Assembly (NCBI GenBank): GCA_012728655.1
Contig: JAAYEQ010000033.1
Coordinates: 1-37,363, forward strand
DNA length: 37,363 bases
Origin: Syntrophomonadaceae bacterium
Lineage (GTDB): Bacteria; Bacillota; Syntrophomonadia; Syntrophomonadales; DTU052
Direction of reading: 5' to 3'
Shown here: positions 8,418 through 37,091 of the stretch, piece by piece
How positions within the stretch are numbered: position 1 is the first letter of the stretch
Layout of the letters: each line of letters opens with the position of its first letter
Position numbers and translations under genes: made by a program
Notes under the pieces: generated by a model
Told to the model about the DNA's origin: nothing
The model's database searches: none
The model's input: only the letters and a program-made list of their open reading frames with translations

Positions 8418-9053
8418 ATGTTAAGGATAATGCCGCAGCCGGTATCGAGGTTGAAGCTGGCGGTGCTGGCCTCGGGAAGAGGTTCAAATTTTGAGGCCCT
8501 GCAAAGGGAGATTGAAGAAAACGCGCTGCCTGCAGTTATCCAGGTGGTAATCTCTGATCGAGAACAGGCTCCGGTTCTGGAAAAGGCGCGCCGGCTGGGA
8601 ATTCCAGCCCTCTACATAAACCCCGGCCAATTTGCCGACCGGCAGCAATATGAGCAGGAGTTGGTCAGGGTTTGTGAGGCTTACGAGGTTGAGCTGGTGG
8701 TTTTGGCCGGATATATGCGCATCCTGGGGGAGACCTTTATCCGGTCCTATCTTTGGAGGATAATAAATATACACCCCGCCTTGCTGCCGTCCTTCCCGGG
8801 ACTTAACGCCCAGCGGCAGGCGGTGGAGTACGGCGTGCGCTTCAGCGGGTGTACGGTTCATTTTGTCGACCAGGGGGTTGATACGGGACCAATAATACTC
8901 CAGGCAGTTGTTCCCGTTTACCCCGACGATGATGAGGAGTCCCTGTCCCAGAGGATCCTCAAGGAGGAGCATCGATTGCTCCCCCAGGCGGTCAGGCTGA
9001 TCGCGGAAGGACGCCTGGAACTCAATGGACGGAAGGTGAACATACTACCATAG
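8418..9053 (+). CDS. purN: GAR transformylase PurN
   Basis: PurN transfers the formyl group of 10-formyl-tetrahydrofolate to GAR. The protein (211 residues from ATG 8418, which has AAGGAG at 8401-8406) has the phosphate loop ASGRGSNFEAL, the catalytic-region block HPALLPSFPG, and GCTVHFVDQGVDTGPII carrying the conserved histidine and aspartate. A second in-frame ATG at 8430 is possible. The folate-dependent enzyme, not the formate-dependent PurT, is encoded. Confidence 0.95.
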   Translation: MLRIMPQPVSRLKLAVLASGRGSNFEALQREIEENALPAVIQVVISDREQAPVLEKARRLGIPALYINPGQFADRQQYEQELVRVCEAYEVELVVLAGYMRILGETFIRSYLWRIINIHPALLPSFPGLNAQRQAVEYGVRFSGCTVHFVDQGVDTGPIILQAVVPVYPDDDEESLSQRILKEEHRLLPQAVRLIAEGRLELNGRKVNILP

Positions 9054-9064
9054 GAGGTTGACCC

Positions 9065-10588
9065 ATGAGCAAGAGAGCCCTGATTAGCGTTTCCAACAAG
9101 GATGGTGTGGTAGAGTTTGCACAGGGTTTGGAGGCCCTGGGATGGGAGATGATTTCCACCGGGGGCACCTACGATACCTTAAAACAATCGGGGGTTAAGG
9201 TGACCAAAGTCTCGGATGTCACCGGCTTTCCGGAAATCTTGGATGGAAGGGTTAAGACTCTGCATCCCGGCATTCACGGAGGAATACTGGCCCGCCGTAT
9301 ACCCGAGCATTTGCAGCAACTGGAAGAGCACGGAATCAAACCCATTGATATGGTGGTCGTTAACCTCTACCCCTTCCGGGAAACCATCCAGAAACCCGGA
9401 GTCTCTTTGGACGAGGCTATCGAAAACATAGATATCGGCGGTCCCACCATGATCCGGTCCGCAGCCAAGAACTATCAGGATGTTATCGTGGTGGTCGATC
9501 CCCGGGAATATCCAGCTATTCTTGATGAATTGAAGGCCCGGGGAGACGTCAGCGCCGAGACGCGTTTAAGGCTGGCCAAACAGGCCTTTGCCCATACCGG
9601 TTTTTATGATGCCATGATTGCACAGTACCTGGGCGGTTTAATGGGAGAGAAGTTCCCCGAGGTCCTGCTCTGGGGAGGCGAGAAGATACAGGAGATGCGG
9701 TATGGTGAGAACCCTCACCAGTCGGCGGCTTTCTACCGCCACGCCCTGGCAGTGGGGGGACTGCCTCTGGCCAGGCAGTTAAACGGCAAAGAGCTTTCAT
9801 ATAACAATGTAATGGATGCCGAGGCCGCCTATGCTCTGGCTATGGAATTCGAGAGTCCCGCCTGTGTGATAATCAAGCACACCAACCCCTGCGGGGTTGC
9901 TGTCGCCAAGGAACTATCCGAAGCCTACCGCCGGGCTTTCAATGCCGATCCGGTTTCCGCTTTTGGCGGCATCATCGCCTTCAATCGCACAGTTGACGTG
10001 GAAACCGCCAAACTGGCGGCCGAGCCCTTTATGGAGGTCATAATCGCTCCCGGTTATGAGGCCGCGGCGCTTTCCATCCTGTGTGCCAAGAAGAACCTGC
10101 GGTTGTTGGAATTGCCGATGGACAGGCCGGGCGGAATGCAGATGAAGAGCGTGGTCGGGGGTATGCTGGTGCAGGAACTGGATACCATCCCCTTCGATAC
10201 CAAGGAACTCAAGGTGGTAACCGAGAGGAAACCTTCACCGGCGGAGTTGGCGGAACTGGCCTTTGCCTGGAAAGTGGTCAAACATGTGAAATCCAATGCC
10301 ATCGTGGTTACCAAGGATAACACCACCCTGGGAATCGGAGCCGGTCAGATGAATCGCGTCGGTGCGGCCCGAATTGCGCTGGAACAGGCCGGAGAAAGGA
10401 GTAAGGGAGCGGTACTGGCTTCCGATGCTTTCTTCCCCTTTAAGGATACGGTCGAATTGGCTGCCGAGTATGGCATAACGGCCATCATTCAACCGGGCGG
10501 ATCCGTTCGCGACCAGGAGAGTATCGACGAATGCAACCGGAGGGGTATCGCCATGGTCTTTACCGGGGTCCGTCATTTCAGGCACTAA
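9065..10588 (+). CDS. purH: Bifunctional AICAR transformylase / IMP cyclohydrolase PurH
   Basis: PurH carries out the last two steps to IMP: formylation of AICAR and ring closure. The 507-residue length fits the two-domain enzyme. The N-terminal MGS-like cyclohydrolase domain starts [16 protein letters not shown] and includes STGGTYDTL and DGRVKTLHP. The C-terminal transformylase domain has the conserved [13 protein letters not shown], with a lysine-histidine pair used in catalysis, and [15 protein letters not shown] lies 8 bases before ATG 9065. Confidence 0.97.
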
Positions 10589-10703
10589 CCGAACTAGGCC
10601 GGTATTTAAGCTATTAACGGGTAATGTTGGGACCGGGGGGCGGTAGTGGATGTGGAAACAGCCTTTATAACCCCTTGTTTCCCTGGACAGGAGGTAAGAC
10701 GAC

Positions 10704-11972
10704 ATGGGTAAAAATGTGCTGGTCATTGGACAGGGCGCCCGGGAACATACTATGGTCTGGAAGCTCAAACAGAGCAAGGGAGTGGACCAGGTTTTCGCAG
10801 TGCCGGGGAATGCGGGCATCGCCCAGTTGGCGGAATGCTTTGCCGTCAAACCCGAAATCGGAAACCTGCTGGATCTGATAGATCGGAAGCAGATAGACCT
10901 TACGGTAGTAGGGCCCGAAGCTCCGCTGATGGAAGGGATAGTCGATGAGTTTGAGGCCAGGGGGCTGAAGATTTTCGGTCCCCGTCGGGATGCCGCCCTT
11001 CTCGAAGGCAGCAAGGTCTTTACCAAGAACCTCTTGAAAAAATACAGTATCCCCACCGCCGATTTCCGTTCGTTTTCGGATATAGATGAAGCCCGTGACT
11101 ATCTGCGGAAAAGAGGCACCCCGATTGTGGTTAAAGCAGACGGCTTGGCCGCCGGCAAGGGGGTAGTGGTAGCCGCCGATAAGGAGACCGCCTTTCAGGC
11201 CCTGGACACCATCATGCGGGACCGCGCCTTCGGTGATGCAGGCCGGGAAGTGGTGATCGAGGAATGCTTGCAAGGTGAGGAGGTAAGCGTTTTCGCTCTC
11301 TGTGACGGGAAAACCGTGGTGCCCATGGTAGCGGCCCAGGACCACAAACGGGTTTTTGACGGTGACCAGGGACCCAACACGGGAGGAATGGGGGCGTACA
11401 GCCCTCCGCCTTTCTATACCCCGGAACTGCACCGGCGGGTAATGACGGAAATTATGGAACCGGTGGTTAAGGCGATGGCGGCCGAGGGCCGTCCTTACAA
11501 AGGGGTTCTTTATGCCGGTTTGATGCTGACCGCCGATGGTCCCAAGGTGTTGGAGTTCAACGTCCGTTTGGGGGACCCGGAAGCCCAGGTGATCCTGCCT
11601 TTGATGGAGACCGATTACCTGACGGTCCTGGAGGCGGTCATTGATGAAAAACTCGACAGTACTCCTATCTCTTTTCATTCCCGGGCCGGTGTATGCGTGG
11701 TTCTGGCTTCTGCCGGTTACCCCGGCAAATATGAAACCGGACATGTGATTACCGGGCTGGAAGATGTTTCGCCGGATATTCTGGTGTTTCATGCCGGGAC
11801 CAGGAGGCAGGGTTCCCGGTTGGTCACTGACGGGGGCAGGGTTCTGAGTGTGGTCGGAACCGGAGATACTGTTGCCGAGGCGATTCACCGGGTTTACCGG
11901 GAAATACCCCGCATACGTTTTGAGGGGATGCACTACCGCAGGGATATCGGGGCGCGGGCCTTGAACAGGTAG
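10704..11972 (+). CDS. purD: GAR synthetase PurD
   Basis: PurD is the ATP-grasp ligase joining phosphoribosylamine and glycine. The 422-residue protein begins with the family opening KNVLVIGQGAREHTMVWKL and contains VKADGLAAGKGVVVA and the metal-binding end of the ATP-grasp domain, KVLEFNVRLGDPEAQ. A 115-base gap separates it from purH and shows no clear terminator or promoter; GGAGGT lies before ATG 10704. It is the last canonical purine gene here. Confidence 0.97.
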   Translation: MGKNVLVIGQGAREHTMVWKLKQSKGVDQVFAVPGNAGIAQLAECFAVKPEIGNLLDLIDRKQIDLTVVGPEAPLMEGIVDEFEARGLKIFGPRRDAALLEGSKVFTKNLLKKYSIPTADFRSFSDIDEARDYLRKRGTPIVVKADGLAAGKGVVVAADKETAFQALDTIMRDRAFGDAGREVVIEECLQGEEVSVFALCDGKTVVPMVAAQDHKRVFDGDQGPNTGGMGAYSPPPFYTPELHRRVMTEIMEPVVKAMAAEGRPYKGVLYAGLMLTADGPKVLEFNVRLGDPEAQVILPLMETDYLTVLEAVIDEKLDSTPISFHSRAGVCVVLASAGYPGKYETGHVITGLEDVSPDILVFHAGTRRQGSRLVTDGGRVLSVVGTGDTVAEAIHRVYREIPRIRFEGMHYRRDIGARALNR

Positions 11973-25596: not shown

Positions 25597-25673
25597 GCTG
25601 CGCCCATTGCATGACCTGCGATGAATATCCTTTCGCCGTATCATATCACATTGTGGAATCCAATTTCATTTTC

Positions 25674-25682
25674 TGTTATAAT
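25674..25682 (+). promoter_or_regulatory. Extended -10 promoter of gatCAB copy 1
   Basis: TGTTATAAT is a consensus extended -10 (TGn plus TATAAT at 25677-25682). There is no well-placed -35; TTGTGG at 25651-25656 is 20 bases away. It lies in the 122-base gap between ligA and gatC and gives the first gat operon its own transcription start. Confidence 0.6.
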
Positions 25683-25718
25683 ACAGGGCACCAGGGCTTA
25701 AGACAGGAGGGATATGCT

Positions 25719-26003
25719 TTGGCCTTGACCATTGAGGAAGTGGAACACGTAGCCCGTTTGGCCCGGTTAAACCTTCCTGCTGAAGAAAAAAATATGTATG
25801 CCCAGCAGCTCAGTTCGATTCTCGATTTTTTTACGATACTCAACCGCCTTCCCACCGACGGAGTTGAGCCGTTGGCCCACGTCCTTCCGCTTTTCAACGT
25901 GATGCGAGCAGACGAGACCGGACCGTCGCTCCCCCGGGATGAGGCGATGGCCAATGCCCCTCTCGCCGAGGACGGGCAGTTTAAGGTACCGAAGATAGTT
26001 TAA
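25719..26003 (+). CDS. gatC: Aminoacyl-tRNA amidotransferase subunit C, copy 1
   Basis: GatC is a small stabilising subunit that wraps around the GatA-GatB interface. TTG 25719, with AGGAGG 8 bases before, gives 94 residues starting with TIEEVEHVARLARL, the normal N-terminus. The reading frame is open further upstream to 25611, but that extension passes through the promoter and has no homology to the family. It has the conserved EPLAHVLPLFNVMRADE segment and the C-terminal FKVPKIV. The TTG start has an exact counterpart in copy 2. Confidence 0.93.
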   Translation: MALTIEEVEHVARLARLNLPAEEKNMYAQQLSSILDFFTILNRLPTDGVEPLAHVLPLFNVMRADETGPSLPRDEAMANAPLAEDGQFKVPKIV

Positions 26004-26018
26004 TTGAGGAGGATATCA

Positions 26019-27470
26019 TTGGAGCTTTACCAATACACGGTTCAGGAAATCGGAGAAATGTTGGCACGGCGGGAAGTTACGGCCAGTGAAGTCCTGGCGG
26101 CTTCAGCCGAGCGTATCGGCCGGGTAGAGAGCAGGATCCATGCGTTTATAACCCTTACCCTGGAAGAGGCCGAGAAGACGGCAAAAGAACTGGATGCACG
26201 GGATGAGATCGGCGGACTCGCGGGGATCCCCTGCGGGATCAAGGATAACCTCTGTACCCGGGGAGTCAGGACCACCTGTGCATCGGAGATGCTGGAAGAC
26301 TTCGTCCCGCCCTATGATGCCACGGCGGTTAAAAAGCTTAAAGCCGCCGGAGCGGTGATGGTCGGCAAATTGAATATGGATGAGTTCGCCATGGGCTCCT
26401 CTACTGAGAACTCCGGTTTTTTCCCTACCCACAATCCCTGGGACCTGACCCGGGTTCCGGGAGGTTCCTCAGGCGGAGCCGCCGCAGCGGTAGCGGCCGG
26501 AGAGGTCTTCTATGCGCTGGCATCGGACACCGGCGGATCGATAAGACAGCCGGCTTCCTTCTGCGGGGTGGTGGGGATGAAGCCTACCTATGGACGGGTG
26601 TCAAGATTTGGTCTGGTGGCCTTCGCCTCCTCCCTGGACCAGGTCGGTCCGATAACCAGAACGGTAACCGACTGCGCTCTGGTCATGAACGCCATCTGCG
26701 GACACGACCATCTGGATTCCACCAGCCTGAAGGTTCCGGTGCCTGATTATACCAAGGATCTACAGGAAGGGATTAAAGGCTTAAAGATAGGTTTTCCCCG
26801 GGAGTACTTCCAGGAAGGGGTGGACCGGGGAGTCAGAGATACCATAATGAAGGCTCTCCTCAAGTTTGAAGAACTGGGAGCGGTGGTGGAAGAGACCAGC
26901 CTGCCCCACAGCGAGTATGCCCTTCCGACATATTACATCATTGCTCCATCGGAAGCCAGCTCCAACCTGGCTCGCTTCGACGGGGTAAGATACGGTTACC
27001 GTGACGGGAACGCCCGGGATACGGTAGAGATGTTCAGCAGCACCCGGGCGCGGGGGTTTGGCCCCGAGGTTATACGCCGGGTGATGCTGGGTACCTATGC
27101 CTTGAGTTCCGGGTACTATGACGCCTACTACCTGAAGGCCTTGAAGGTGCGGCGGCTAATCAAGGAAGACTTCGACCGGGCGTTTGAACGGTACGATATT
27201 CTGGCTTCTCCCACCACTACATCCACCGCCTTCCGCATTGGGGAGAAGGCTCAGGATCCTCTGACTATGTATATGTCGGATATGCTGACCATACCGGTCA
27301 ACCTGGCAGGGATTCCCTCCATTTCGATTCCCGGAGGTTTCATTGACAATCTGCCGGTGGGGCTGCAGCTTATGGGCCCTCCGCTGTCGGAAGCGACTCT
27401 TCTCAAGGCGGCCTACGCCTTCGAGCAGGCCACTGATTACCATCTGCGCACACCCGTACTGGAGGTGTAG
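26019..27470 (+). CDS. gatA: Glutamyl/aspartyl-tRNA amidotransferase subunit A, copy 1
   Basis: GatA hydrolyses glutamine and passes ammonia to GatB. The 483-residue protein belongs to the amidase-signature family and keeps the whole Ser-cisSer-Lys triad: Lys75 in GIKDN, Ser150 in PGGSSGG and Ser174 in [10 protein letters not shown]. These equal Lys79, Ser154 and Ser178 of Staphylococcus aureus GatA. The Arg354 equivalent of the glutamine-binding Arg358 is also present (VIRRVMLGT), as is the DPLTMY loop. TTG 26019 has GAGGAGG upstream. This copy should be an active glutaminase. Confidence 0.96.
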
Positions 27471-27473
27471 ATC

Positions 27474-28922
27474 ATGACCGATAAATATGAAGCGGTAATA
27501 GGGCTGGAAGTGCATGTTGAACTCAAGACCAAATCCAAAGCCTTTTGCCACTGTGCCACCTCCTTCGGGGCTGAACCCAACACCCATGTATGTCCGATTT
27601 GCCTGGGAATGCCCGGGGTGCTGCCGGTTCTGAACCGGCAGATGGTGGAATATGCACTGATGACCGCTCTGGCCCTGAACTGCCGGATTGCCGATTACTG
27701 CAAGTTTGACCGCAAAAATTACTTCTATCCCGACCTGCCCAAGAACTATCAAATTTCCCAGTACGACCTGCCGATAGCCAGAAGCGGCAGCCTGGTGATA
27801 GAAACCAAGAACGGACAAAGAGCCATAGGGATTAACCGGGTACATATGGAAGAGGATGCCGGGAAACTGGTTCACAAGGGCAACATAATAACCACCCCCT
27901 ATTCCCTGGTGGATCTGAACCGGGCGGGCACTCCGCTGCTGGAGATTGTATCCGAGCCTGATTTGAGGTCCCCCGGGGAAGCCAGGGTATATATGGAGCA
28001 ACTCCGTTTGATTCTTCTCTATCTGGGGGTATCGGACTGCAAGATGGAGGAGGGTTCCCTGCGCTGTGATGCCAATATATCCGTAAGACCGCAGGGACAG
28101 CAGCAGTTGGGAACCAAGACGGAGATCAAGAACCTTAATTCCTTCCGGTCCCTGGAGCGGGCCCTTGATTACGAGATAACACGGCAGATTGAAGCCCTGG
28201 CGCAAGGCGAGCGTATAATTCAGGAGACCAGGACCTGGGACGAAGACCGACAGGTCACCATGAGTATGCGCTCCAAAGAAGAAGCCCATGATTACCGTTA
28301 CTTCCCGGATCCGGACCTGCCTCCCTTGCGCATTGACCGGGACTGGGTGGAGAGGGTGCGCCGGAGTCTCCCCGAACTCCCGGAGCAGGCGCGCCGCCGT
28401 CTGTCCGAGGAATACAACCTGAGTCGGTATGATGCCCTCTTGCTCACCGCATCCAAGGATATCCTGGATTTCTTCGATGATTGTGTTGCTCGGTACCCCA
28501 AACCCAAAGTGGTTGCCAACTGGATCACGGGCGACCTGGCCCGGCTTTTAAATCAGAGCAAGCTGGAGATCGGGGATTGCAGGGTAACACCGGCATTGCT
28601 GGTCGGGCTCTTAAAACTTCTGGATGAAGGAACTATAAGCGGGAAAATCGCCAAAGCGGTTTTGGAGGAGATGTTCACCACCGGTGAGGCCCCGGACAAG
28701 ATCGTAAAAGACCGGAGGCTGATACAGATCTCGGATGAATCGGCTGTAAAAGCAATAGTGGATGAGGTCATTGCCGGAAATCCGAAGGTAGTGGAAGACT
28801 TTAGGAACGGCAAGGACAAAGCCCTCGGGTTCCTGGTGGGTCAGGTGATGAAAGCCAGCAAGGGTAAGGCCAACCCGGAACTGGTCAACCGGCTCCTGAG
28901 GGAAGAACTGTCCCGCAGGTAG
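27474..28922 (+). CDS. gatB: Glutamyl/aspartyl-tRNA amidotransferase subunit B, copy 1
   Basis: GatB binds the misacylated tRNA, phosphorylates its Glu or Asp side chain and transfers ammonia. The 482-residue protein begins [15 protein letters not shown] with the metal-binding His14 and has HMEEDAGK and EIVSEPD acidic motifs of the kinase site. Four cysteines (25, 27, 40, 43) form the zinc knuckle seen in many GatB proteins. The C-terminal YqeY-like tail ends [24 protein letters not shown] 27474 is 3 bases after the gatA stop. Confidence 0.96.
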
Positions 28923-29331
28923 CAAAGCCTCTAGCCGCTCGGCGATGAAGAAGAGCAACAAGCGGGGGCGAAAAACCTCGATGGAGGATTTTGAACGCTG
29001 CTGGTCCAATTCATAATTGCCAGATGCTTGACGGGCGAAAAGCCACGATGCAGAATTATGGACTCGAACAGAGCTCACAGGTTTCGCCTCCGATGTTATA
29101 AATACGCTTAAAGAGGATTGTTGGCCCCGACCGAGGGCGCTATCCCGGACCGGCCCCACCGGCCTTCCTACCTCCTTGCATAAATATTAATCACCAAGAG
29201 CAGACATTCCCCTCTTTACCTACCCCTATCGCGGTACCGCTTGTTGACTTTTCCACAAGATTTATAGCGGGGGACTCGGCCTTTCTGATATAATACTGTG
29301 CATGAAGATTCGGGATAGGGAGGAAAGGCCG
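28923..29331. other. Intergenic region between the two gatCAB operons
   Basis: These 409 bases hold the copy 2 promoter near the 3' end. The rest shows no convincing gene, tRNA or terminator. A 182-codon frame on the minus strand (28611-29159) runs across it, but it is mostly antisense to gatB copy 1 and has no recognisable features. The small hairpin GGCGAAAAGCC (around 29034-29044) and the AT-rich ATAAATATTAAT are the only local structure I noted. It may be the scar of the tandem duplication. Confidence 0.5.
29286..29294 (+). promoter_or_regulatory. Extended -10 promoter of gatCAB copy 2
   Basis: TGATATAAT is a consensus extended -10 (TATAAT at 29289-29294) without a -35 at normal spacing; TTGACT at 29244-29249 is too far away. 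The same type of element precedes copy 1, so the second operon can be transcribed by itself. Confidence 0.6.
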
Positions 29332-29616
29332 TTGGCTTTAACTGAAAAGGATGTTGAACGCCTGTCCGTTTTGGCTCGGATAAGCCTTACCGAGGAAGAG
29401 AAGAAAGCATTTGCCCGGCAGATGAGTTCGATCCTGGATTCTGCTGCCGTGCTCGATGAGCTGTCAACCGACCGGATAGAGCCGCTCATCTATGTCCTTT
29501 CCAAATACAACGTGATGCGGGATGATAAGGTGCGTCCCTCCCTCGCCAATGATGAAGCTCTGGCCAATGCCCCTCTTAAAGAGGATGCGATGTTCAAGGT
29601 GCCGAGATTAATATAA
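29332..29616 (+). CDS. gatC: Amidotransferase subunit C paralogue, copy 2
   Basis: A second GatC of 94 residues, starting at TTG 29332 with AGGGAGG 8 bases before, exactly as in copy 1. An ATG at 29302 is in frame but would fall right at the expected transcription start. The protein is clearly homologous to copy 1 (ALTEKDVERLSVLARISL), but the usual HVLP segment reads YVLS here, changing a conserved histidine and proline near residue 65. The C-terminal FKVPRLI is kept. It is probably a partner for the divergent GatA that follows. Confidence 0.88.
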   Translation: MALTEKDVERLSVLARISLTEEEKKAFARQMSSILDSAAVLDELSTDRIEPLIYVLSKYNVMRDDKVRPSLANDEALANAPLKEDAMFKVPRLI

Positions 29617-29629
29617 GGAGGAACCCCTG

Positions 29630-31066
29630 GTGAATCTCTACCACTTAACCGTTCATAAAGCAGCAGAGATGTTGAACCGGCGGGAGATTAAAGCGCAGGA
29701 AGTGCTGGAAGCCGTCTCCCGGCGTATTGACCTGGTTGAAAACAAGATCAAAGCCTTCATTACTCTTACCCTGGATCAGGCGGAGAAAAAGGCAAAGGAG
29801 CTTGACGACCGCCATGAATTCACTGGTCTGGGGGGAATCCCTTATGGTGTGCAGGACAACCTCTGTACCCTGGGAGTAACGACCACCTGTGCTTCGAAGA
29901 TGCTGGAAGGCTTTATTCCCCCGTACGATGCCACGGCGGTGGGCAGGCTGAAAGCGGCGGGGGCCGTAATGGTGGGCAAGCTGAACATGGATGAGTTCGG
30001 CATGGGGCACTTTACAGAAACCTCCTGTTTTCATCCCACTAATAATCCCTGGGATCTCACCCGGGTTGCGGGCGGTTCTTCCGGGGGAGCGGCCGCAGCG
30101 GTGGCGGCCGGGGAAGTGTATTATGCCCTGGCTTCGGATACCGGCGGCAGCCTGAGACAGTCCGCGGCTTACTGCGGGGTGGTGGGGATGAGACCCACCT
30201 ACGGGCGGGTTTCCCGTTACGGCCTGGTGGCCGTGGCTTCATCCATGGATCAGGTGGGGCCGGTGACCAGGAACGTTACCGACTGCGCTCTGGTGCTGAA
30301 CCTTATCTGCGGTTACGATGGTCTTGATTCCAACAGCCTGGAGGCGGAGGTGCCCGATTACCGCGGTTACCTGGAAACCAACCTCAAGGGGATGAGGATC
30401 GGGTTCCCCCGGGAGTATTTTGAGAACTATGTTGATGAATCCGTTAGAGATGCGGTGAAAAAAGCCCTGTTAAAGTACGAAGAACTGGGGGCGGTGGTGG
30501 AAGAAACCGGACTTCCTCACAGCAAGTATGCCCTTCCCGTATTCCGGCTGCTGGCATCAGCGGAAGCCAGCTCCAACATGGCCCGCTTTGACGGGGTGAG
30601 GTACGGTTATCGGGACGAAGAGGCACAGGACATAGCGGAGATGATGAGCAATTCCCGCGGTCGGGGCTTCGGACCTGAGGTGAAGCGCAACATCCTGCTG
30701 GGGACCTATGTCCTGAGCAAGGAGCAGTATGACACTTACTATTTACGGGCAATGAAGGTACGGCGTCTGATCAAGGAAGACTTTGACCGGGCGTTTGAGA
30801 AATACGATCTTTTGGTGGCGCCGACTACGGCCACGGTTGCTTTTCCCCGCGGCGAAAGGAATGAAGACCTGTCAGACCTGCTCACCATACCGGCCAGCCT
30901 GGCCGGTATCCCGGCCATGTCCATTCCCGGGGGGATGGTGGACGGTCTGCCGGTGGGATTGCAGCTCATGGGCCCGAGGCTGGCGGAAGGAACCCTGCTT
31001 AAAGCGGCCTATGCTTTTGAACAGGCTGCGGATTACCATTTGCGCACACCCGTACTGGAGGTATAG
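29630..31066 (+). CDS. gatA: Divergent GatA paralogue lacking glutaminase residues, copy 2
   Basis: This 478-residue protein aligns with copy 1 along its length and is in frame throughout, but the glutaminase site is altered. The triad lysine is Gln75 (codon CAG at 29852-29854; GVQDN instead of GIKDN). The Arg equal to S. aureus Arg358, which holds the glutamine carboxylate, is Asn354. The GS of the GGSTETS motif is His127-Phe128. PGGSSGG reads AGGSSGG and GGSIRQPA reads GGSLRQSA. The DPLTMY loop is deleted. Ser150 and Ser174 remain. Known amidase-signature enzymes need the lysine, so it should be inactive or very weak as a glutaminase. It may scaffold GatB or bind another ligand. GTG 29630 has AAGGAGG upstream. 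Confidence 0.9.
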   Translation: MNLYHLTVHKAAEMLNRREIKAQEVLEAVSRRIDLVENKIKAFITLTLDQAEKKAKELDDRHEFTGLGGIPYGVQDNLCTLGVTTTCASKMLEGFIPPYDATAVGRLKAAGAVMVGKLNMDEFGMGHFTETSCFHPTNNPWDLTRVAGGSSGGAAAAVAAGEVYYALASDTGGSLRQSAAYCGVVGMRPTYGRVSRYGLVAVASSMDQVGPVTRNVTDCALVLNLICGYDGLDSNSLEAEVPDYRGYLETNLKGMRIGFPREYFENYVDESVRDAVKKALLKYEELGAVVEETGLPHSKYALPVFRLLASAEASSNMARFDGVRYGYRDEEAQDIAEMMSNSRGRGFGPEVKRNILLGTYVLSKEQYDTYYLRAMKVRRLIKEDFDRAFEKYDLLVAPTTATVAFPRGERNEDLSDLLTIPASLAGIPAMSIPGGMVDGLPVGLQLMGPRLAEGTLLKAAYAFEQAADYHLRTPVLEV

Positions 31067-31069
31067 ATC

Positions 31070-32518
31070 ATGACTGAAAAATACGAAGCGGTAATAGGCT
31101 TGGAAGTGCATGTGGAACTGAAAACCAACACCAAAGCCTTTTGCGGCTGCGGGCTTTCCTTTGGAGCTCTGCCCAACAGCCATGTGTGTCCCGGCTGCCT
31201 GGGGATGCCCGGTGCCATACCGGTTTTAAACCGTGAACTGGTGGAATTCGCGATAAAAACCGGTTTGGCCTTGAACTGCAAAATTGCCGAGTTCTGCAGG
31301 TTTGACCGCAAGAACTATTTCTACCCGGATCTCCCGGCGAACTACCAGATATCGCAGCTCGATCTGCCTATTGCCAGTGCGGGGTACCTGGAGATTGAAA
31401 GCGAAGGGGTAAAGAAGAAGATCGGCATCAACCGGGTGCATATGGAAGAGGATGCAGGAAAGCTGGTGCATCAAGGCAGCATAATGACGACCCCCTATTC
31501 CCTGGTGGATCTGAACCGAGCGGGAACGCCGCTATTGGAAATCGTATCCGAACCCGATATCAGGTCTCCGCGGGAGGCCAGTATGTATATGGAAAAACTG
31601 CGTTCGATCCTTTTGTTCCTGAGAGTTTCCGACTGCAAAATGGAAGAGGGATCCCTGCGCTGTGATGCCAACGTATCGGTGAGACCGCGGGGCCAGGAAA
31701 GATTGGGAACCAGGACCGAAATTAAGAACCTGAATTCCTTCCGCTCGCTGGAGCGGGCTCTGGAGTACGAAATCAAGCGGCATATCGAGCTCCTGGAGGA
31801 AGGCGGAGAGTTGGTTCAGGAAACCCGCACCTGGGACGAGGACCGGCAGGTTACCTTGAGCATGCGCTCCAAGGAAGAAGCCCAGGATTACCGGTATTTC
31901 CCGGACCCGAACCTGCCTCCGGTCATAATTGACCCGGAATGGGTGGAAAGGGTGCGCAAGACCCTGCCGGAACTTCCGGATCAGGCCCGCGAGCGCTTGA
32001 TGAGCGAGTATAACCTGTCATCGTATGACGCCAACCTCCTTACCATGTCCAAGGATGTCCTGGACTTCTTTGATGCCTGTGTCGCCGAGTATAATGAGCC
32101 CAAGTTGATAGCCAACTGGGTGATGGGAGAACTGACCCGACTGCTCAACCAGAACAACATGGAGATCAAGGATTGCCGGGTTACTCCTTCATCCCTGGCG
32201 GCAATGCTCAAGCTGATGGAACAGGGAACTATTAGCGGTAAAATCGCGAAAGTGGTGTTTGAAGAGATGTTCAACACCGGTGATGCACCGGAGAAGATCG
32301 TCAAAGACCGGGGGCTGGTGCAGATCTCGGATGAATCGGCCATCAAAGCCATAGTGGACGAAGTCATTGCTGCAAATCCCAAGGTGGTGGAAGACTTCAA
32401 GGCCGGCAAGGAGAAGGCCCTCGGGTTCCTGGTGGGTCAGGTGATGAAGGCCAGCAAGGGCAAAGCCAACCCGGAAATAGTAAACCGGCTCTTGCGGGAG
32501 GAACTGTCTCGCCCCTAA
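31070..32518 (+). CDS. gatB: Amidotransferase subunit B paralogue, copy 2
   Basis: A second GatB of the same 482-residue length. The kinase motifs are intact (His14 in [24 protein letters not shown]), as are zinc cysteines 25, 27, 40 and 43 and the tRNA-binding tail. The last 30 residues are nearly identical to copy 1. One notable change is Leu34 for the very conserved Glu of FGAEPN. The transferase half therefore looks functional although its GatA partner is not, so the complex would need free ammonia or another donor. ATG 31070 follows gatA copy 2 by 3 bases. Confidence 0.92.
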
Positions 32519-32793: not shown

Positions 32794-33966
32794 GTGCCGA
32801 TCGCTTCTACTGGAAAGGAATGGTTCTTGGAGGAGGGGGCCAAGGTCTATATTGTTGACACCACTTTGCGCGACGGGGAGCAGACAGCCGGAGTGGTTTT
32901 TTCCAATGAGGAAAAGATTCAAATCGCCAGGTACCTTGATGAGCTGGGGGTTGATCAGATCGAGGCCGGGATTCCGGTGATGGGCGGCGACGAGAAGAAG
33001 TGCATCCGCGAGATTGTGGATCTGGGTCTGAAAGCGAGTATCATGGCCTGGAATCGCGCGGTAATCAATGATATCAAAGAATCCATTGAGTGCGGTGTTG
33101 ATGCGGTTGCCATATCCATCTCGGCTTCGGATATTCATATAGAGTATAAGCTGCAGACCACCAGGGAAGATGTCCTTAAACGCATGGCGGATGCGGTTAA
33201 GTTTGCCAAGGACAAGGGGCTGTATGTATCGGTTAATGCCGAGGATGCTTCCCGGGCTCATATGGATTTTTTGGTCGAGTTTGCATTAACTGCCAAACAC
33301 TGCGGAGCCGATCGTCTCCGTTTCTGCGATACCGTGGGTATTCTTGACCCTCTAACGACTTACCGCAAGATCACCACCCTGGTTGATTCCGTGGGGCTGG
33401 ATATAGAGATGCACACCCACAATGATTTCGGGCTGGCAACCGCCAACTCCCTGGCCGGGGTTTATGCGGGTGCCCGCTATGTGGGGGTAACCATTAACGG
33501 CCTGGGAGAAAGAGCCGGAAACGCCTCCCTGCAGGAAGTTGTTATGGGAATGAAACACCTTATGGGGCTGGATTTGAAATTTAAGACCGAGATGTTCCGT
33601 GAGGTGGCGGAGTATGTGGCCAAGGCTTCGGGAAGAACCCTGTCTCCGGCCCATCCCATCGTGGGAACCAACATTTTTGCCCATGAGTCCGGAATCCACG
33701 GGGACGGGGTGCTCAAGAACCCTATGAACTACGAAGCCTTTTCGCCCCAGGAAGTGGGGCTGGAACGCCAGATCGTTATCGGCAAGCATTCGGGAACCAA
33801 CGCGTTAAAAGCCAAGTTTATCGAGTATGAGATAGAACTTACCGACGAACAGGCCAAGGAACTGCTGCCGTTGGTCAGAGCCAAGGCGATTGAGCTGAAA
33901 AGGCCGTTGTTTGATAAAGAACTGGCGGCATTGTATGAAAACTACGTGAAGGGGAGAGAAAAGTAA
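32794..33966 (+). CDS. Re-citrate synthase / homocitrate synthase family enzyme
   Basis: This 390-residue protein is a DRE-TIM condensing enzyme of the NifV/homocitrate synthase branch. It has VDTTLRDGEQTAG (residues 21-33), the metal-binding histidines 207 and 209 in HTHND, and the NGLGERAGNASL signature. It lacks the leucine-binding C-terminal domain of LeuA. The family includes homocitrate synthases and the Re-citrate synthases of anaerobes. Followed here by an aconitase-family pair and an isocitrate dehydrogenase, it is most likely a Re-citrate synthase making citrate from acetyl-CoA and oxaloacetate; homocitrate synthase cannot be excluded. GTG 32794 has AAAGGAG 9 bases before. Confidence 0.8.
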   Translation: MPIASTGKEWFLEEGAKVYIVDTTLRDGEQTAGVVFSNEEKIQIARYLDELGVDQIEAGIPVMGGDEKKCIREIVDLGLKASIMAWNRAVINDIKESIECGVDAVAISISASDIHIEYKLQTTREDVLKRMADAVKFAKDKGLYVSVNAEDASRAHMDFLVEFALTAKHCGADRLRFCDTVGILDPLTTYRKITTLVDSVGLDIEMHTHNDFGLATANSLAGVYAGARYVGVTINGLGERAGNASLQEVVMGMKHLMGLDLKFKTEMFREVAEYVAKASGRTLSPAHPIVGTNIFAHESGIHGDGVLKNPMNYEAFSPQEVGLERQIVIGKHSGTNALKAKFIEYEIELTDEQAKELLPLVRAKAIELKRPLFDKELAALYENYVKGREK

Positions 33967-33967
33967 A

Positions 33968-35224
33968 TTGGGCAAGACAATTGCTGAAAAAATACTGTCG
34001 ATGAAGTCGGGTGTTGATGCCCGGGCCAATGATATTGTGATAGCCGATCTTGATTTTGTGATGGGGCAGGACGGAACCTCCCCTCTGGCCATACAGGCCT
34101 TTATCGAGATGGGAGGCCTTCGGGTTTTCGACCCCCGGCGGGTGGCCATGGTCATTGACCACAGCGCTCCCAGCCCCCTGGAAGGGGTTTCCGCTCTCCA
34201 CAAGAAGATGCGCGATTTCGCAGACCGCTATGATGTAATGCTTTACGATATCGGAGAAGGGGTCTGTCACCAACTGGTTCCGGAAAAAGGGCATGTGGCT
34301 CCCGGAACCCTGGTTATCGGGGCAGACAGCCATACCTGTACCTATGGCGCACTGAACGCCTTTGCTACCGGGGTCGGTTCCACCGATCTGGCGGCAGGGA
34401 TGATTTCCGGGAAGCTGTGGTTCAAGGTTCCCGAAACCATTAAGTTTGTGCTCCACGGAGAGCTGCCCCCGGGAGTGTTTTCCAAAGACCTCATACTTTA
34501 TCTGATCGGGGATGTTACCGCCGATGGCGCGACTTACATGGCGGCCGAATACGTGGGAGAAGCCATCAAGGCCCTGTCCATGGAGGCTCGTTTTACCATC
34601 AGCAATATGGCCATCGAGATGGGGGCCAAGGTGGGATTGATGGAGGCAGACGAGAAGACGGAAGCCTGGGTCAGAGAGCATTCTTCCCTCCCCTATAAGC
34701 CGGTATTTGCCGATCCCGATGCGGTTTATGCCGAGGTAAGGGAGTATGATGTCAGCAAACTGGAACCTCAGGTGGCAAAGCCTCATACCGTTGACAATGT
34801 TTCCCCTATCGGAGAGGTGGCCGGCATTGAGGTTCAGCAGTGTGTGATCGGCACCTGCACCAACGGAAGGCTGGAAGACCTTCGTATTGCCGCCAAAATC
34901 CTGGAGGGGAAAAAGATTCATCCCCGCACCAGGTTGATCGTAGCCCCCGCCTCCCGCCAGGTTTTTCTGGATGCCATTCGGGAAGGGATTATCAGCACCC
35001 TGGTGGAAGCGGGAGCAGCCATCGTCACCCCGGGCTGCGGTCCCTGTGTGGGAACTCACAACGGGGTGCCGTCGGACGGGGAAAACGTGATTGCCACCTC
35101 CAACCGGAATTTCAAGGGCCGCATGGGTAATAACAAGGCCTTCATCTACCTGGGGTCACCGGCCACGGTGGCAGCTTCGGCGATAGCCGGTAAGATCAGC
35201 GACCCCAGAGAATACTGGAGGTAG
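33968..35224 (+). CDS. Aconitase-family hydratase large subunit (LeuC-like)
   Basis: The 418-residue protein is of the LeuC/homoaconitase type, with [4Fe-4S] ligands Cys297 in GTCTNG and Cys357 and Cys360 in GCGPC. The GADSHTCTYGAL and GVGSTDLA motifs are present. Such two-subunit enzymes isomerise isopropylmalate, homocitrate, citrate or dimethylmalate. With a condensing enzyme before and an isocitrate dehydrogenase after, citrate to isocitrate is the likely reaction, by inference. It starts at TTG 33968, 1 base after the previous stop, with GGGGAG upstream. Confidence 0.85.
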   Translation: MGKTIAEKILSMKSGVDARANDIVIADLDFVMGQDGTSPLAIQAFIEMGGLRVFDPRRVAMVIDHSAPSPLEGVSALHKKMRDFADRYDVMLYDIGEGVCHQLVPEKGHVAPGTLVIGADSHTCTYGALNAFATGVGSTDLAAGMISGKLWFKVPETIKFVLHGELPPGVFSKDLILYLIGDVTADGATYMAAEYVGEAIKALSMEARFTISNMAIEMGAKVGLMEADEKTEAWVREHSSLPYKPVFADPDAVYAEVREYDVSKLEPQVAKPHTVDNVSPIGEVAGIEVQQCVIGTCTNGRLEDLRIAAKILEGKKIHPRTRLIVAPASRQVFLDAIREGIISTLVEAGAAIVTPGCGPCVGTHNGVPSDGENVIATSNRNFKGRMGNNKAFIYLGSPATVAASAIAGKISDPREYWR

Positions 35225-35234
35225 GTGAATATCA

Positions 35235-35735
35235 ATGAATTTAAGAGGTAAGGCTCACAAATTCGGCGACGACGTAAACACGGATTATATCATCTCGGGG
35301 CGATATAAGTTCAAAACCCTGGACATGAAGGAACTGGCCAAACATGTCATGGAAGACCTGGACCCCGAGTTTTATTCCAAGCTCAATAAGGGTGACTTCA
35401 TTGTGGCCGGCAAAAATTTTGGCTGCGGTTCCTCCCGGGAGCAGGCACCCCTGGCGATAATCCATGCCGATATCAGCGCGGTTATTGCCAAGTCCTTCGC
35501 CAGGATTTTTTACCGCAATGCCATCAATACCGGTTTGCCGCTCCTGGAGTGCGATACGGATTTGATTAATCCGGGAGATGAATTGGAGGTTGACCTGGGC
35601 AAGGGAATAGTACGGAACCTGACCCAGAATACGGATATACAAGTAAAACCGCTGCCGCCGTTCATGTTGAAGATACTGTCCGACGGCGGTCTGGTTGAGC
35701 ACTTCAAGAAGCATGGGACATTCAATTTGGAGTAA
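35235..35735 (+). CDS. Aconitase-family hydratase small subunit (LeuD-like)
   Basis: This 166-residue protein is the swivel subunit paired with the LeuC-like protein. It has [15 protein letters not shown] at the start and the family motif [14 protein letters not shown] near residues 58-71. The substrate-selecting loop after DVNTD reads YKFKT (residues 24-28). In characterised archaeal relatives this position is YLRT in homoaconitase and YLVY-like in isopropylmalate isomerase, so neither pattern fits. The gene is 10 bases after the large subunit. Confidence 0.87.
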
Positions 35736-35755
35736 ACAGGTTGTAAAACCAGGGT

Positions 35756-35781
35756 GAAGCGGGGGGCTCTCCCCATGCTTC
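35756..35781 (+). other. Hairpin between the hydratase small subunit and icd
   Basis: GAAGC and GCTTC flank a GGGG/CCCC core in a 26-base stretch within the 78-base gap. There is no T-run after it. It could stabilise RNA ends or tune expression of icd; no proof. Confidence 0.3.
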
Positions 35782-35813
35782 CGACATAATAAGCAAGCTG
35801 GAGGTTCTGAAAC

Positions 35814-37091
35814 TTGGCGACAACAATGCATGGACAGAGAATACAGATTGAAAACAATCAACTCCAGGTTCCCGACCACCCGATTATTCCTTTTATTGAG
35901 GGCGACGGCACCGGACCGGATATTTGGGCGGCGGCTTCCCGAGTTTTGGATGCTGCCGTGGCCAAGGCTTACGGAGGCCGAAGATCAATCGTCTGGAAGG
36001 AGGTCCTGGCCGGGGAAAAGGCCTTTAAGCAGACCGGCCATTGGCTGCCGGATGAGACCCTGGAAACGATTCGGCATTACCTGGTAGCCATTAAGGGCCC
36101 GCTTACCACTCCGGTGGGCGGCGGTATCCGTTCCCTCAATGTGGCCCTGCGGCAGGAGCTGGACCTGTACGCATGCGTCCGCCCGGTTCGCTGGTTCAAA
36201 GGGGTTCCTTCCCCGGTGAAAAGGCCGTGGGACACAGATATGGTTATATTCAGGGAGAATACCGAGGATATCTATGCCGGCATCGAATACCCCAAGGGAT
36301 CCGAAGAGGCTAAAAAGCTTTTGCGATTCCTGCAGGAAGAGATGAAGGTTAACAAGATCAGATTTCCCGAAACCTCCGGCCTCGGCATCAAGCCGGTTTC
36401 CGAAGAAGGTTCCAAGCGGCTGGTGCGGGCCGCCATACGGTACGCCATCAAGGAAGGGCGAAAGAGCGTAACCCTGGTTCATAAAGGCAATATCATGAAG
36501 TTCACCGAAGGAGCCTTCAAACAGTGGGGCTATGAGGTGGCGGAAGAGGAATTCGGCGACAAAGTTTTCACCTGGAACCAGTACGATCTCATCAAGGAAG
36601 AAAAGGGTGAAGAGGCTGCCAATCAGGCCCAGAGCAAGGCCGAAGCCGAGGGCAGGATCATCGTCAAGGATGTTATTGCCGATATCTTCCTGCAGCAGAT
36701 ATTGACCCGGCCGCGGGAATTCTCGGTGGTGGCAACCATGAATCTGAACGGGGACTATATCTCCGACGCCCTGGCGGCTCAGGTAGGAGGCATAGGCATC
36801 GCTCCGGGGGCCAACATCAATTACGAAACCGGTCACGCCATTTTTGAGGCCACTCACGGCACCGCTCCCAAATACGCCGGGCTGGACAAGGTAAATCCCT
36901 CCTCGGTGATACTCTCGGGGGAGATGATGCTCCGCTATCTGGGATGGGATGAAGCCGCTTCCCTGATAATAGCAGCCTTGGAAAGGACTATCGACCAAAA
37001 GATTGTGACCTATGACTTCGCCCGCCTGATGGAAGGCGCCACCGAGGTAAAGTGCTCGCAGTTCGCGGATGAACTGATTAAAAACATGTGA
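35814..37091 (+). CDS. icd: NADP-dependent isocitrate dehydrogenase
   Basis: The enzyme oxidises isocitrate to 2-oxoglutarate and CO2, with NADPH. The 425-residue protein is of the E. coli type. The substrate loop [13 protein letters not shown] has Ser107, Asn109 and Arg113, equal to E. coli Ser113, Asn115 and Arg119, which bind isocitrate. The cofactor site reads [12 protein letters not shown] and TYDFARL, keeping the lysine, tyrosines, valine and arginine that select NADP over NAD. TTG 35814 has GGAGG about 8 bases before; ATG 35826 would be 20 bases away. It ends the four-gene block and is followed by a terminator. Confidence 0.94.

Follow-up and report, generated by a model that had tools for sequence, protein, structure and literature searches.

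A tandem gatCAB operon with a predicted glutaminase-dead GatA and its possible use of free ammonia

We analyse a contig of 37,363 nucleotides (here called the window) in which two gatCAB operons stand in tandem, and find that the GatA of the second operon has, judging by its residues, lost the canonical glutaminase site, a conclusion that is well supported, and that its gene remains under purifying selection. GatCAB is the textbook example of an enzyme in which glutamine hydrolysis is coupled through a tunnel to amidation. The reading that we favour, with a probability of roughly 0.45, is that the second complex (GatCAB2) works as an amidotransferase with no glutaminase, taking up free ammonia to amidate Asp-tRNA-Asn. 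If this is true, natural glutaminase-less GatCABs would mean that the coupling is dispensable and that tRNA charging can be tied to free ammonia, and complexes with a dead GatA would be ready-made variants for tunnel studies.

The window is contig 55 of a genome (G000) of 2.31 Mb in 79 contigs that is 96% complete; the database name of a genus-mate is Syntrophothermus sp. DTU052 (Bacillota). The two operons, each with the order gatC-gatA-gatB, span 25611-28922 and 29302-32518 and are flanked as a pair by ligA and a gene for a nifV-type homocitrate synthase. Their genes are as follows:

25611..26003, plus strand: gatC1, an open frame with its conserved core from about residue 36 (TIGR00135, above cut-off)
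26004..27470, plus strand: gatA1, with the K-S-S triad, R358 and D425 all intact (TIGR00132, 644.6 bits; residue table)
27474..28922, plus strand: gatB1 (GatB families; dN/dS 0.163 over three species)
29302..29616, plus strand: gatC2, an open frame (TIGR00135, 75.8 bits, cut-off 47.1)
29630..31066, plus strand: gatA2, predicted to be glutaminase-dead (TIGR00132, 564.2 bits, cut-off 481.1; lesions; dN/dS 0.184)
31070..32518, plus strand: gatB2, with paired-Cys and other GatB motifs intact (motif alignment; dN/dS 0.099)

All six proteins pass the curated cut-offs of their Gat families. Between the two operons the identity is 70% for GatA, 77% for GatB and 53% for GatC.

Two elements ahead of the second operon are visible in the upstream alignment:

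29289..29294, plus strand: TATAAT, the probable extended -10 box of the second operon, TGATATAAT (upstream alignment)
29317..29327, plus strand: Shine-Dalgarno-like AGGGAGGAAAG, 5' of the TTG at 29332 (sequence and conservation)

All four species of the genus share both, and the remaining spacer around the -10 box has diverged; similar boxes also precede gatC1 and the gatC of the sister genus. The promoter claim is based on this conservation. A scan with the sigma-70 consensus lists no strong promoter ahead of gatC2 and misses the box because no good -35 box lies ahead of it. The likely start of gatC2 is TTG 29332 rather than ATG 29302. In one genus-mate (G003, locus L074, about 8505-11300) an 873-codon open frame lies on the opposite strand between the gat operons, an arrangement that differs in G000 and G001.

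Now we consider the active site of GatA2, numbered by alignment to S. aureus GatA (2DF4), in which Gln75 corresponds to Lys79, Ser150 to Ser154, Ser174 to Ser178, Phe305 to Tyr309, Asn354 to Arg358 and Asp416 to Asp425:

29852..29854, plus strand: Gln75, codon CAG, in place of the catalytic Lys79 (alignment, codon read)
30074..30082, plus strand: Gly149-Ser150-Ser151 of GGSSGG; Ser150 is the cis-serine Ser154, retained (alignment)
30149..30151, plus strand: Ser174, the nucleophile Ser178, retained (alignment)
30542..30547, plus strand: Phe305-Arg306, in place of Tyr309-Tyr310 (alignment)
30689..30691, plus strand: Asn354, codon AAC, in place of the glutamine-binding Arg358 (alignment, codon read)
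30854..30883, plus strand: ERNEDLSDLL, where the five-residue loop PLTMY is deleted relative to copy 1 (alignment)

The Ser-cisSer-Lys triad is thus incomplete through K79Q, with both serines present. A first-pass annotation of this DNA had proposed, from the letters of the window, that the second GatA cannot be a normal glutaminase, and most of what it described is borne out: the coordinates and codons of Gln75 and Asn354 are exact, serines 150 and 174 align to Ser154 and Ser178, the changes from Pro to Ala before GGSSGG and from Pro to Ser after GGSLRQ are both real, and the PLTMY stretch of the DPLTMY loop is absent. Its mention of His127-Phe128 holds for the window and does not extend to the relatives, since sister species have GS or CC there and the site is also variable among intact GatAs. 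An AlphaFold model of GatA2 built from a four-sequence alignment was too poor for inspection of the pocket (mean pLDDT 42) and was set aside.

In the copy-2 GatAs of two further species (G001 and G003) we find Q79, S182, F309, R310, N358 and the loop deletion exactly as in the window, and at position 151 either A or S; having the lesions in three species rules out an assembly error or a strain-specific change as their source. In the glutamine-binding pair, R358N is found in all three species and Asp425 is kept in G000 (as Asp416) and G003, with Gly in G001. G002, which branches first within the copy-2 clade, shares the loop deletion and has F309 and Gly425, but it retains Lys79 and Arg358. The loss was therefore stepwise: loop and pocket changed first, and the catalytic residues followed. 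In the sister genus (G004) the single gat copy is intact and groups with the copy-2 clade in the tree, and the duplication may therefore predate the genus. Because the changes are common to three species and the frames are under purifying selection (see below), the loss of normal glutaminase function is well supported by sequence; changes confined to this assembly or neutral evolution of copy 2, which the first-pass annotation had named as grounds against its proposal, are not what we observe. Absence of the activity itself is what the residues lead us to infer. It is scarcely credible that GatA2 is still a weak glutaminase: the window's copy does retain both serines and Asp425, but other residues stand in place of the catalytic Lys, Arg358 and Tyr309, and the loop beside Asp425 is deleted.

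How widespread is such a GatA? We searched 85,000 species with the K-to-Q motif LxGIPx[GA][VIM]QDN and obtained six stretches, of which four lie in gatCAB operons: two belong to genus-mates and two to a separate lineage (L020, L023). At E<=1e-10 the other two (L021, L025) match none of GatA, GatB and GatC, and we discounted them as chance occurrences of QDN in amidases. In the family of L020 and L023 a single GatA was found in each of six genomes; four of the triads read QAC, QAC, EAC and QGC, and the remaining two GatAs, each 374 codons long and without about the first 75 residues, read E-T-R. In the wider order, five genomes combine an intact copy with a dead EAS or EFS copy, a sixth has an EFS copy only, and a seventh has an intact copy and an ALA copy; this triad survey counts G074, a fragment that ends early and in which the Lys position is absent. 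The L020/L023 family and the EAS and EFS copies belong to a second order of Clostridia. In total, the only GatA found is dead in G005, G006, G067-G070 and G077, and dead GatAs persist throughout the whole family. We built a GatA tree without the active-site columns and a GatB tree alongside it, and about four independent changes are needed on the former and five on the latter, with well-supported branches forcing at least two and at least three, respectively. Neither tree joins the window's loss to any of the others.

To see where the dead GatAs have changed, we define 104 conserved columns from 45 intact GatAs, with six active-site residues chosen beforehand from the literature. In the copy-2 clade, 8 of the 104 columns are consistently changed and three of these eight are among the six active-site residues (Fisher p = 0.005); the QAC clade has ten changed columns, five of them in the active-site set (p = 2e-5). 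Five of copy 2's eight (columns 79, 128, 151, 182 and 432) are changed in the EAS/EFS clade as well (p = 3e-5). Release from a constraint that only the glutaminase imposes could be the cause of these common changes. The same parallel changes might instead suggest a reshaped pocket that serves another nitrogen donor or nucleophile, or a new small-molecule activity, and the nucleophile Ser178 is indeed kept in GatA2 and the EAS/EFS clade, with Cys there in the QAC clade. This alternative is nevertheless very improbable in our view, as simple loss of the glutaminase would release the same columns and we find no genomic link to another pathway.

Quantitative inspection of evolutionary rates bears on whether the second operon is being kept. 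We calculated dN/dS pairwise among G000, G001 and G003 (Nei-Gojobori, trimmed codon alignments, 500 bootstraps) and obtained 0.089 for A1, 0.184 for A2, 0.163 for B1, 0.099 for B2, 0.155 for C1 and 0.140 for C2. All values are far below 1: GatA2 is under purifying selection, and GatB2 more strongly so. The frames are open in every copy, with no frameshift or stop. A slow decay, in which GatCAB is dispensable given GlnRS and AsnRS and GatA2 is on its way out, would fit the presence of both synthetases in all seven genomes tested for both (G000-G006), the dN/dS of A2 at about twice that of A1, and the stepwise loss with Lys79 and Arg358 still in G002. We regard it as quite improbable, however, given the open frames, the purifying selection on A2, B2 and C2, the conserved promoter and the persistence of dead GatAs over an entire family.

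The same numbers contain a reciprocal pattern, with A1 and B2 tight and A2 and B1 relaxed (A2 exceeds A1 in over 99% of bootstraps and B1 exceeds B2 in 99%). This raises the question of whether the subunits mix, GatA1 with GatB2 as the main glutamine-dependent enzyme and GatA2 and GatB1 as less-used halves; if GatA1 and GatB2 were the main pair, loss of the GatA2 site would leave the cell with a working GatCAB. At 70-77% identity, the GatA and GatB paralogues might be exchanged in this way. The ratio of protein rates A/B is also suggestive: intact operons spread over 0.67 to 1.78 (median near 1), and in the window's genus copy 1 lies apart from them with an unusually low 0.46-0.59. Mixing leaves unexplained, however, both the genomes whose sole GatA is dead and the concentration of changes, subsequently fixed, in glutaminase columns, and we consider it unlikely.

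The other half of the enzyme appears to be kept. In most dead operons the protein rate ratio A/B is 1.3-2.7 (1.18 in G069/G070), with GatB evolving the more slowly. In alignments covering the window, its genus, the order and the second lineage, the GatB motifs GLE.H, EEDAGK and E(I/V) and the Cys motifs are retained beside dead GatAs, and GatB2 has the metal-site and ATP-site residues (as named in PMC4027206) and the Cys motifs. These motifs weigh against a purely binding role, in which GatA2 is only a scaffold or regulator and GatCAB2 holds mischarged tRNA or AspRS in a transamidosome-like assembly, or clears mischarged tRNA, with no amidation; they are kept in all GatB copies inspected, beyond what binding alone would need. 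Such a role would agree with the off-site columns that dead GatAs keep (58 of the 104 in all long ones), with aspS directly 5' of the gat operon in two genomes and with the lack of an evident need for amidation in G005 and G006, but it is distinctly unlikely on balance.

We return to ammonia-dependent amidation and ask what the tRNA and asparagine pathways of these genomes would allow. Searches above cut-off find no AsnB in G000, G001 and G003 and no AsnA in the window's genus (genomes 90-99% complete); AsnB is present in G002 and G004, AsnA in G005, G006, G067 and G068, and neither was found in G069 and G070. GlnRS is present in G067-G070 as well, in G069 as two pieces. The AspRS of the genus matches the P. 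aeruginosa Asp/Asn enzyme in its His and Gly residues at the sites compared, and that of G005 and G006 has Leu there, as in E. coli and T. thermophilus; we take His/Gly and Leu at these sites to be determinants of non-discriminating and discriminating specificity, respectively. The tRNA-Asn of the window's genome carries U1-A72, the amidotransferase identity pair (PMC9976931, PMC4206432).

In the proposed mechanism, GatCAB2 would have lost its glutaminase half and kept its kinase/transamidase half. GatA2 would not hydrolyse glutamine and would stay as the structural partner of GatB2 and as the mouth of the ammonia tunnel. A non-discriminating-type AspRS would supply Asp-tRNA-Asn in this genus, GatB2 would phosphorylate the Asp side chain (or, less likely, Glu on tRNA-Gln) and would amidate the activated Asp using free ammonia of the cytoplasm, not ammonia derived from glutamine, and the product would be a de novo source of asparagine for species that have neither AsnA nor AsnB. 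That the complex forms, uses free ammonia and has Asp-tRNA-Asn as its main substrate is what we infer from this context. There is precedent in yeast GatFAB, where NH4Cl bypasses the glutaminase and a truncation disturbing the GatA site leads to more NH4Cl-driven amidation (PMC4027206).

The clearest analogy is with G069 and G070, which have the operon aspS-gatC-short gatA-gatB and a His-type AspRS. With no AsnA or AsnB found and a short GatA, amidation of Asp-tRNA-Asn would need another nitrogen source there, so that in these genomes, where no glutaminase-competent GatA was found either, ammonia-dependent amidation is the simplest route to asparagine unless the organisms are auxotrophs. This analogy, together with the constrained GatB2 and the missing AsnA and AsnB, is why we read GatCAB2 as the ammonia-using partner of a glutamine-using GatCAB1. 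Ammonium is high in anaerobic digesters, the source that the assembly names of several relatives presumably indicate. Three points temper the reading: ammonia use is not forced in the window's genome because copy 2 directly follows an intact gatCAB1, GlnRS and AsnRS make GatCAB non-essential for charging, and the link between AsnB loss and a dead GatA2 covers just three related species. The first-pass annotation had argued for a selected new role; retention of the old amidation step with a changed nitrogen donor, a scaffold role or A1/B2 hybrids would fit as well, and of its suggestions ammonia-dependent amidation is the best supported. The synthetase and asparagine pathways and the parallel losses in another order are evidence beyond what that annotation had before it. 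In G005 and G006 the discriminating-type AspRS and the presence of AsnA make Asp-tRNA-Asn an unlikely substrate; these genomes appear to have no need for amidation, so the substrate may differ between lineages. Similar losses arising separately in other anaerobes suggest enzymes that run on free ammonia. Extended in this way, the proposal is tentative and falls short of even odds: several lineages of anaerobic Clostridia would independently have made GatCAB glutaminase-free and ammonia-driven, in some as the only copy found and in G069 and G070 as the sole evident route to asparagine, with GatA a pseudoenzyme at the tunnel mouth that can shrink by a quarter.

GatCAB2 is a variant of a known enzyme. 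It resembles the canonical complexes (S. aureus 2DF4, A. aeolicus 3H0L, P. aeruginosa 4WJ3) in gene order, protein families, GatB motifs and most conserved GatA columns, and differs in a GatA that has lost the lysine of the triad, the arginine that binds glutamine, Tyr309 and the active-site loop. B. bacteriovorus makes asparagine on tRNA with GlnRS, AsnRS, GatCAB, a single AspRS and neither AsnA nor AsnB (PMC4206432). The window's genome shares this set, including a single bacterial AspRS and a U1-A72 tRNA-Asn, but has two gatCAB copies, one apparently without a working glutaminase site. The NAD synthetase family, with glutamine- and ammonia-dependent members (PMC3376133), likewise contains an amidating synthetase able to dispense with its glutaminase partner; there the glutaminase is a nitrilase-like domain, whereas GatCAB2 keeps the dead subunit in its operon. 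AsnA, the ammonia-dependent asparagine synthetase, would also use free ammonia to form this amide, but by an unrelated mechanism acting on free Asp. In the open-access literature that we searched, which takes in few subscription papers, we found no previous description of a natural GatCAB with a dead glutaminase.

Several minor observations accompany the survey. In G075b (L191, 3174-4610), counted among the intact copies, the alignment is gapped across the Ser178 segment, and both GatAs of G075 are broken if this gap is no assembly error. Three GatAs with an intact triad (G084, G085 and G086, on L187, L189 and L188) have Ser for the otherwise conserved Glu126. The second GatA copies G079b (L198) and G017b (L116) keep the triad and have Asp425 changed to Gly or Tyr309-Tyr310 changed to Phe-Leu; they are perhaps early stages of the same path of glutaminase loss. 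In G094, an extra gatB without a gatA or gatC partner (L175, 1351-2784) lies just 5' of an intact gatCAB and groups in the tree with the gatBs of G091-G094.

In the window itself, the nifV-type homocitrate synthase gene 3' of gatB2 begins a row (32794-37091) that continues with large and small subunits resembling aconitase/isopropylmalate dehydratase and an NADP isocitrate dehydrogenase. At the other end, positions 70-168 match the Rfam family Guanidine-I (RF00442, 69.8 bits, cut-off 63) directly 5' of a purE-led purine-synthesis cluster; by its position, this element may be a ykkC-type variant sensing a purine precursor such as PRPP.
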